64,000 bases of DNA, taken from the NCBI GenBank assembly GCA_945860245.1, contig CAMAPO010000001.1, positions 62,001-126,000 on the forward strand, read 5' to 3'. The stretch is from Bifidobacterium breve. Its GTDB lineage: Bacteria; Actinomycetota; Actinomycetes; Nanopelagicales; Nanopelagicaceae. This document shows positions 44,098 to 45,837 of the stretch, in pieces (the stretch's first letter is position 1; the number at the start of each line of letters is the position of its first letter). Both the position numbers and the translations under genes were made by a program. A model generated the notes under the pieces. That model was not told where the DNA came from. It saw nothing but the letters and a program-made list of their open reading frames with translations, and searched no databases.

Positions 44098-44619
44098 ATG
44101 GTGGAACAAATCCCCGGAATGCCAGATCGTTGGGCACGCCTTTGGGCGCCTCACCGCATGGAGTATTTAAAAGGTGAGAACCGACCACTTTCTGAAAATG
44201 GAGTCGACTGCCCTTTCTGCCAGATAACAACTCTCAGCGATGCAGAAGGATTGGTTGTTGCGCGCGGTGAAAGCGCCTTTGTTGTAATGAATTTGTATCC
44301 ATATAACGCCGGACATTTATTGATTTGCACCAACCGCCACGTCGCTGATCTTACAGATCTGACAAAAGCGGAGAGAGATGAAATCTCAGATCTAACTTCA
44401 CACGCCATGGTCACTTTACGAAAAGTTTCGGCCCCTGCAGGATTTAATTTAGGTATGAATCAGGGGGCGATATCTGGTGCTGGTGTCGCTGAACATATCC
44501 ATCAACATGTAGTTCCACGTTGGGCAGGGGATGCAAACTTCATGCCACTGATTGGACAGACCAAGGTGATGCCGGCGCTACTATCGCAAACTCGTGATGA
44601 GCTGTCCGCCGCTTGGTAA
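44098..44619 (+). CDS. HIT-family nucleotide phosphohydrolase/phosphorylase
   Basis: Histidine-triad protein of 173 residues. The active-site triad His-x-His-x-His is in AEHIHQHVVPRW; the N-terminal CPFCQITT has paired cysteines and MNLYPYNAGHLLI is the family's strand motif. Homologues cleave dinucleoside polyphosphates such as Ap4A. It follows thrS by 2 nt, an arrangement kept in many actinobacteria. It converges on the EF-G-like gene with a 6-nt gap. Confidence 0.93.
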   Translation: MVEQIPGMPDRWARLWAPHRMEYLKGENRPLSENGVDCPFCQITTLSDAEGLVVARGESAFVVMNLYPYNAGHLLICTNRHVADLTDLTKAERDEISDLTSHAMVTLRKVSAPAGFNLGMNQGAISGAGVAEHIHQHVVPRWAGDANFMPLIGQTKVMPALLSQTRDELSAAW

Positions 44620-44625
44620 TCTTCT

Positions 44626-45195
44626 TTAAAGCTGATCTATAAAATCTTTAACAATATTTATACCTAGGCCATTTGAGATAACAATCGGTATTGCCGGAAA
44701 GAGCAGACCGGCTGCAAAGGCGTGTTCCCCAGCTCCTGCCATCTCTTCCAAATATTCTTCGCGAAATTCAGCGACCAACTCTTGATGTTCGGTCTCGCTC
44801 TGCGAAGTTGTTGGTGGATTGGAGCTGTAATCAAAGATTTGCAGATCATCTAATGAAATTAAGGCAATCGGACTTCCAGATTGTGAATGAAGAACTAAAT
44901 ATGGCGTAACTAACTGATCTAATACACGATTGGCCAACATGATTGCATCTTCAAAATCGGCATCCGAACCATCTAGTTCATTAACAACTACCAATCGCGG
45001 TAATTGATAGTCACTTAAAGCCTGCCATTGATCGATAGTATTCTGATCAATTCCGGCGGCGGGATTTATGGCAAATATTGCAAGATCTGATTCGGCGTTA
45101 ACTTCGCTGGCAAGTTGAGCGCCAAATAGATTGGCGATCGCCTGTGGTTGGGCAGAAACATGGCCGTAGACATGGATGCGTTTATCAGAACTCAC
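44626..45195 (-). CDS. Degenerate EF-G-like G-domain protein
   Basis: Protein of 189 residues that reads like an eroded G domain of elongation factor G. Residues about 36-85 (SDLAIFAINPAAGIDQNT, then LPRLVVVNELDGSDADFEDA) parallel the EF-G stretch around its NKxD motif, here Asn-Glu-Leu-Asp. A later helix (ELVAEFREEYLEEMAG) and IPIVISNGLGINIVKDFI parallel the G' region and the SAF-like loop. The P-loop position reads VYGHVSAQPQAIANLF, with no GKS/T, and both switch regions are missing, so GTP hydrolysis is not expected. GTG start; TATTCT at 45203-45208 (minus strand) lies 7 nt upstream. Function unknown. Confidence 0.65.
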   Translation of the reverse strand: MSSDKRIHVYGHVSAQPQAIANLFGAQLASEVNAESDLAIFAINPAAGIDQNTIDQWQALSDYQLPRLVVVNELDGSDADFEDAIMLANRVLDQLVTPYLVLHSQSGSPIALISLDDLQIFDYSSNPPTTSQSETEHQELVAEFREEYLEEMAGAGEHAFAAGLLFPAIPIVISNGLGINIVKDFIDQL

Positions 45196-45230
45196 AGGCG
45201 TCAGAATAGGTGAATTTCAACCCTTGAGCC

Positions 45231-45236
45231 TACGAT
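45231..45236 (+). promoter_or_regulatory. -10 element for leaderless pgsA
   Basis: TACGAT ends 7 nt before the ATG at 45244 and overlaps the alternative ATG at 45235. It favours the start three codons further in. Confidence 0.45.
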
Positions 45237-45243
45237 GGTGGCG

Positions 45244-45837
45244 ATGTTAAGCGCTTATTTAAAGCCCGCCATAACCCGCGCCATCATTCCAATAGCGCGA
45301 GGTGCCCTTCGCGTGGGGTTAACACCTAATGCGGTTACTTTCGTGGGAGCGCTCGGATTAGTTTCAAGTGCTCTTTACTTCTATCCGCGCCAAGAGTTCT
45401 TTGTCGGCACCCTACTTATCTCTTTCTTCGCACTCAGTGATTTATTTGATGGAGCAATGGCGCGCATCTCGAAACGTGGCGAGAGCAAATGGGGCGGATT
45501 TTTAGATTCTACAATCGATCGGATAACAGATTCAGCAATTTTGCTTGGGCTAATTCTTGCCTTGATCGAAAGCGATGATCGATTGCTTCCGGTTGCACTT
45601 GGTGCACTAGTTGCTGGAACTTTAGTTCCCTACATTCGGGCCAAGGCTGAATCGCTTCAGATCGAGTGTTCGGGTGGAATAGCCGAACGGACCGAGAGAT
45701 TGATCATTGCCTTAACAGCGATTGGCTTCGAAGGTCTTGGCATCCCCTACGCATTGGCAATTGGAGTCTGGGTCCTCTTCGTACTTGCAGTGGTAACCAT
45801 CGTGCAGCGAATCTTGATAGTTAAGGCGGCGTTGTAA
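45244..45837 (+). CDS. pgsA: CDP-alcohol phosphotransferase, phosphatidylinositol phosphate synthase
   Basis: Membrane enzyme joining CDP-diacylglycerol with inositol phosphate, the first step toward PI and PI mannosides. The full CDP-alcohol motif is visible in DLFDGAMARISKRG followed by GFLDSTIDRITD (D-x2-D-G-x2-A-R ... G-x3-D-x3-D). About six helices, 197 residues. Following patA and pimA support inositol phosphate as substrate over glycerol phosphate. The ATG at 45235 is possible, but 45244 fits the promoter spacing. Confidence 0.9.
   Translation: MLSAYLKPAITRAIIPIARGALRVGLTPNAVTFVGALGLVSSALYFYPRQEFFVGTLLISFFALSDLFDGAMARISKRGESKWGGFLDSTIDRITDSAILLGLILALIESDDRLLPVALGALVAGTLVPYIRAKAESLQIECSGGIAERTERLIIALTAIGFEGLGIPYALAIGVWVLFVLAVVTIVQRILIVKAAL

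Follow-up and report, generated by a model that had tools for sequence, protein, structure and literature searches.

Mini-EF-G2, a pseudo translational GTPase and G/G' remnant of EF-G2 in freshwater actinobacteria

Within the 64,000-nucleotide stretch of DNA analysed here (the window), positions 44626 to 45195 of the minus strand hold an open reading frame of 189 amino acids with a GTG start, which on the basis of sequence, homology, orthologues, selection and fold is described here as mini-EF-G2, a pseudo translational GTPase representing a G/G' remnant of EF-G2. Gene context shows the frame to be convergent with the gene of a HIT-family protein (44098..44619, plus strand) and divergent from the gene of a pgsA-type phosphatidyltransferase (45235 or 45244 to 45837, plus strand), both of which are conserved neighbours. 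Coordinates, GTG start and location between HIT and pgsA are exactly those proposed in an earlier interpretation made without database searches (sequence-only reading). The gene order thrS, HIT, EF-G2, pgsA, acyltransferase, with only EF-G2 on the opposite strand, is common to the mini-genes and to full-length EF-G2 genes in most outgroup loci examined (L082-L095). Since full-length EF-G2 occupies the same slot in outgroup families, mini-EF-G2 and actinobacterial EF-G2 (fusA2) are positional orthologues. Variations of the locus were seen in three genomes: two contain about 0.7-0.9 kb of additional DNA between HIT and the mini-gene (G062, loci L048 and L079; G031, locus L011), and in the third no HIT gene was found between thrS and the mini-gene, the end of thrS being 2 nt away from the mini-gene match (G071, L076).

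The -10-like hexamer TATTCT is located 7 nt upstream of the GTG (45203..45208, minus strand), and comparison of loci identifies it as leaderless promoter of the window's clade, TATTCT-N5-8-GTG being found in all 12 loci of this close clade. Further upstream a block that is conserved across much of the family, CATCGTAGGCT (45227..45237, not assigned to one strand), contains TAGGCT, the -10 element of most mini-EF-G2 genes, overlapping with TACGAT on the opposite strand, a possible -10 element of pgsA that was recognized by inspection only. With TAGGCT-N5-8-ATG/GTG at 57 of the 78 loci and the TATTCT form at 12 more, the promoter-like leaderless signal named in the sequence-only reading is conserved. 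Moreover, because the block offers TACGAT to pgsA, the two divergent genes may share overlapping -10 elements.

To which protein family does the 189-residue protein belong? The best NCBIfam match is EF-G2 (NF009377, E=2.2e-16), aa 36-153 aligning to profile positions 102-219, and the match to canonical EF-G (TIGR00484, E=1.8e-4) is far weaker. NF009377 is matched by 46 of 47 members of the mini-EF-G2 family, albeit the window protein with 59.5 bits does not reach the curated equivalog cut-off of 890 bits. Pfam GTP_EFTU (E=3e-5) was not considered decisive because its score of 24.1 bits is below the curated cut-off of 26.5, and the decision was left to the NCBIfam and PDB searches. The latter returned M. 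smegmatis EF-G2 (9k0z, E=2.5e-9) as best solved relative, and Thermus thermophilus EF-G-2 (PDB 1wdt/2dy1) is also among the closest. In a profile-profile comparison the 47 orthologues matched 22 actinobacterial EF-G sequences with E=5e-29 over 155 columns. The homology to EF-G is therefore far above chance, and the relative of the mini-protein is EF-G2, not the translocase EF-G; the earlier verdict of an eroded, EF-G-like pseudo translational GTPase is upheld with this refinement. Freshwater actinobacteria of the acI/Nanopelagicales type thus contain a conserved protein that profile libraries overlook at curated cut-offs.

Alignment of the orthologues reveals which parts of the GTPase have been lost (all coordinates on the minus strand). 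The P-loop (aa 11-18, 45142..45165) has degenerated to GHVSAQPQ as compared to GHxxxGKT in EF-G, lacking the lysine as well as the serine or threonine, and the pattern GxxxxGK[ST] occurs in none of the 47 aligned orthologues. The G4 motif NKxD is reduced to NELD (aa 72-75, 44971..44982), and [NT]KxD is equally absent from all 47, so that both motif losses claimed in the sequence-only reading hold. The same is true for the deletion of the switch regions, which is supported in addition by the predicted fold and by profile-profile comparison: b1-a1 (aa 7-23) runs nearly straight into b4 (aa 38-44), and the bridge at aa 28-36 (45088..45114) joins EF-G residues that are about 65 apart, switch I, b2, b3 and switch II with its DxxG motif (about residues 36-98) being gone. 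The same three lines of evidence place b6 and a degenerate G5 region at aa 166-178, FPAIPIVISNGLG (44662..44700), corresponding to FPV..GSA...G of EF-G. The chain ends with a5 of the G domain, leaving no domains II-V. From these losses it is inferred that mini-EF-G2 should neither bind nor hydrolyse GTP in the manner of a normal GTPase, nor act in translocation.

Best conserved is the shortened G' subdomain (aa 94-163, 44707..44916; alignment, fold, profile-profile comparison), consisting of a four-stranded sheet and a long acidic helix. About 22 residues including the second G' helix are deleted, and the sheet and the long first helix are kept. Among the 47 orthologues L100, L102, G107, Y123, F144, F160 and G163 are invariant and H103 and E147 nearly so. 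According to alignment and fold the helix (aa 135-155, 44731..44793) corresponds to the helix through which EF-G touches the bL12 (L7/L12) stalk (PMC8446442); it is acidic in all 47 sequences with a net charge of -2 to -9, albeit no binding data exist. The proteins as a whole are also strongly acidic (net -16 to -24).

An AlphaFold2 model, for which only the window and locus sequences served as input, has a pLDDT of 94.4 and a pTM of 0.90. When superimposed onto residues 7-279 of S. aureus EF-G, 188 of the 189 residues align with a Z-score of 21.5 and an rmsd of 2.3 Å, and the top Foldseek matches are EF-Gs as well. The model predicts a compact half of the EF-G G domain (b1-a1, b4-a3-b5-a4, b6-a5) together with a trimmed G' subdomain. 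An unrelated fold, which would have refuted the sequence-only reading, is thus not what is predicted.

The gene is present without internal stop codon in nearly all of 60 relatives and 151 genomes of the family. Matches were obtained in 146 of the 151 genomes, and as 6 of these are due solely to canonical EF-G, about 140 have a gene of the mini-EF-G2 lineage; absences such as in G100 (94% complete, no match) are rare. The form of about 190-250 amino acids is found in 15 of 17 genera, one genus (g29) contains a form of about 330 amino acids, and another (g38, represented by G073) a full-length EF-G2 with intact P-loop. Identity between the window protein and the mini-proteins of most other genera is only 30-48%. 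Nei-Gojobori dN/dS values for close pairs are 0.04-0.18 for the mini-gene, those of the neighbouring genes (0.02-0.14) being similar or somewhat lower. Orthologues at the same locus, open frames and purifying selection therefore bear out the earlier notion of a maintained protein, the alternative outcome of missing orthologues or decaying frames not having materialized.

Canonical EF-G with domain IV is encoded separately in 13 of 14 family genomes tested, including the complete ones, and a second full-length EF-G only in G073. The exception is the window's own draft genome (G000, 93% complete), in which no canonical EF-G was found, most likely owing to an assembly gap.

How did the short form arise within the family? 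In a tree of concatenated ThrS, HIT, PgsA and acyltransferase sequences the full-length G073 lineage is outermost, followed by the genus with the 330-residue form and then by all mini forms together, the basal position of G073 being supported by bootstrap values of 95 and 100 at the nodes on either side. In a second tree, to which other families were added, G073 groups with the 330-residue genus with a support of 66. Because the two trees place G073 differently, a single stepwise erosion cannot be distinguished from two parallel ones. The C-terminal stretch of the 330-residue form resembles domain V, with shuffle z-values of 5.6, 2.9 and 1.9 for three sequences as compared to at most 1.5 for other domains, and the hhalign match to domain V is weak. 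The AlphaFold model of this intermediate (L062) is of low confidence (pLDDT 54), wherefore the fold search with it was left out of the evidence.

Erosion of EF-G2 is not restricted to this family. A class-wide scan revealed short EF-G2 frames in two further actinobacterial families (f34 and f39), and the loci read in them have the frame in the same gene slot, contain neither GxxxxGK[ST] nor switch II (DTPG), and keep the b4-G' region. Frames are 317-364 amino acids long in f39 (genus g94; one frame has 458, probably because of a 5' extension), and in f34 232-249 (genus g97) or 262 and 423 amino acids (g103); those of genus g87 (377-422 amino acids, one locus read) occur alongside full-length members of the same genus. 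As full-length relatives interleave with the eroded forms on the tree, the P-loop must have been lost at least five times independently, once in the window's family, once in f39 and three times in f34, provided that it was never regained. The dN/dS values in f39 are 0.06-0.17. All eroded forms that were aligned match EF-G2 across the b4-to-G' stretch, in whole or in part. Two f34 loci (L143 and L155) encode versions of about 480 amino acids that still contain the P-loop, which demonstrates that intermediates of different age exist. The amount of domain II left varies among the same-locus truncations of 232 to about 480 amino acids at L114-L119 and L155-L175.

By sequence, fold and gene position mini-EF-G2 is orthologous to actinobacterial EF-G2/FusA2 (NF009377; 9k0z), with which it has the b4-a3-b5-a4 half and the G' subdomain in common; but EF-G2 has about 700 amino acids and not 189, and the mini-protein has neither P-loop, switches and NKxD nor domains II-V and the second G' helix. 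Mtb EF-G2 in contrast has kept the G1, G3 and G4 motifs (PMC8446442). With canonical EF-G it shares the G/G' fold but neither the GTPase motifs nor the translocation domain IV, and T. thermophilus EF-G-2 differs in being full-length and reportedly having ribosome-dependent GTPase activity (PMC9067457). Mini-EF-G2 thus belongs by descent to the EF-G2 lineage yet lacks what defines a translational GTPase. Pseudo-enzymes that have retained the GTPase fold and lost GTP binding exist and are, like mini-EF-G2, under selection. Neither a bacterial pseudo translational GTPase nor a truncated or pseudo EF-G2 was found to be described in the open-access literature that could be searched, which does not prove absence of such reports.

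What could the function of such a protein be? Computation shows descent from the EF-G2 of the same locus, loss of motifs and domains, purifying selection and repeated reduction, and we consider it very likely that EF-G2 origin, dead GTPase and maintenance all apply together. Full-length M. smegmatis EF-G2 reportedly shows no GTPase activity that depends on the ribosome, an activity predicted to be absent from the mini-protein too, and what M. smegmatis EF-G2 does is unresolved (PMC9067457, PMC3832671). Since in addition b4-a3-b5-a4 and G' survive each reduction, it is probable, though inferred, that the function kept resides in the G/G' half and does not depend on GTP. In this view the useful activity of EF-G2 would have been GTP-independent and located in the G/G' half already before the reduction. 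The L7/L12 stalk is touched by G' glutamates of EF-G, most of which are also found in Mtb EF-G2 (PMC8446442); a structure of M. smegmatis EF-G2 on the ribosome also exists (PDB 9k0z, 'EF-G2 bound 70S ribosome complex of M. smegmatis'). Because G' is best conserved, its helix is always acidic and the EF-G glutamates contact the stalk, we propose that the acidic G' face docks, nucleotide-free, onto the C-terminal domain of bL12 at the factor-binding site. Docked mini-EF-G2 might regulate how readily EF-G, EF-Tu and other factors reach this site, or might shield idle ribosomes.

As G' has been kept by each of the lineages that eroded independently, binding to the stalk is the favoured hypothesis. 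Nevertheless, of the three stalk-contacting glutamates of Mtb EF-G1 only two can be placed in the mini-protein, and these approximately and by sequence (aa 150, glutamate in 30 of 47; aa 157, glutamate or aspartate in 41 of 47), and the deletion in G' including the second helix also speaks against docking. Furthermore, the mini-protein no longer has those regions with which EF-G reaches the sarcin-ricin loop and the small subunit, so that the stalk would be the only contact left for binding to the ribosome. Without binding data, the inference that bL12 or the ribosome is the partner is slightly more likely to prove wrong than right, and the whole reading, a pared-down EF-G2 orthologue under selection whose G' docks without nucleotide onto bL12, is given a probability of roughly 0.5. 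The idea of the sequence-only reading that the protein occupies the factor site or acts as decoy is neither borne out nor excluded, retention of G' favouring stalk binding.

The main rival assumes that the G/G' scaffold was repurposed as acidic adaptor or regulator for a non-ribosomal partner, ribosome binding being lost together with GTP binding. In favour of it are the deletion of most known ribosome contacts of EF-G, the strong negative charge of the protein and the far divergence between genera, which leaves room for a change of partner. However, the same EF-G2 core including G' is kept in each independent eroded lineage, for which one ancestral partner is the simplest account, and the G' helix is acidic throughout; this explanation is rated as less likely than not. 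Less convincing is an antagonist or decoy, the latter raised already in the sequence-only reading, that competes with EF-G, EF-Tu, IF2 and others for bL12 and would slow down translation, perhaps when cells starve or are in the dark. Its anatomy would be identical to that of the main explanation and canonical EF-G coexists; in addition, no ribosome hibernation factor HPF (PF02482) was detected in five complete or near-complete genomes that all have mini-EF-G2 (G014, G060, G068, G077, G089), leaving room for another ribosome silencer. Against this unlikely alternative, no dosage, expression or binding data support it, and many other family genomes contain both HPF and the mini-protein, so that no pattern of replacement is seen. 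HPF loss as such was also rejected as explanation of the mini-protein, there being no exchange pattern among the complete genomes tested. A sensor binding guanine nucleotides or alarmones in a non-canonical manner is very improbable: the G-domain scaffold and a GHxSA loop persist in the window's genus, but the loop is missing in several other genera, and P-loop Lys and Ser/Thr, NKxD, the G5 motif and both switches are lost. A dying pseudogene left over from EF-G2 loss, for which the extent of the loss and rare genomes without match could be invoked, is practically ruled out by frames that are open in almost every genome of the family, low dN/dS, conserved promoter and confident fold, and a random or antisense frame is rejected given its presence in the family genomes, the same-locus orthologues and the fold.

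If the preferred reading, GTP-independent docking of a selected EF-G2 remnant on bL12, is taken further, actinobacterial EF-G2 would functionally not be a translational GTPase at all; its conserved task would be a GTP-independent action of G/G' at the ribosomal stalk, to which streamlined aquatic actinobacteria would have cut it at least five times independently, thereby giving rise to a novel class of small ribosome regulators that bind the stalk without nucleotide. We would wager against rather than for this bolder version, by a moderate margin. EF-G2 is widespread in actinobacteria including mycobacteria, and its role is unresolved. What survives of it after several parallel reductions probably shows what EF-G2 is for; repeated natural truncation narrows the function to a module of about 190 residues and predicts GTP-independent activity. 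The surprise lies in the recurrence of the erosion and in an open question about EF-G2 having become testable.

Mini-EF-G2 is, moreover, a small protein that has persisted across a lake-dwelling bacterial group of very high abundance. Among named complete genomes the closest, linked to the window by a single-protein scan that returned 5 loci, is that of the cultured freshwater acI isolate IMCC26103 (CP015604) with 85% identity. A further locus (L176, CAMBGS010000028.1), titled Bifidobacterium breve, encodes an 85% identical mini-EF-G2 of the freshwater lineage, the title apparently being a mislabel.
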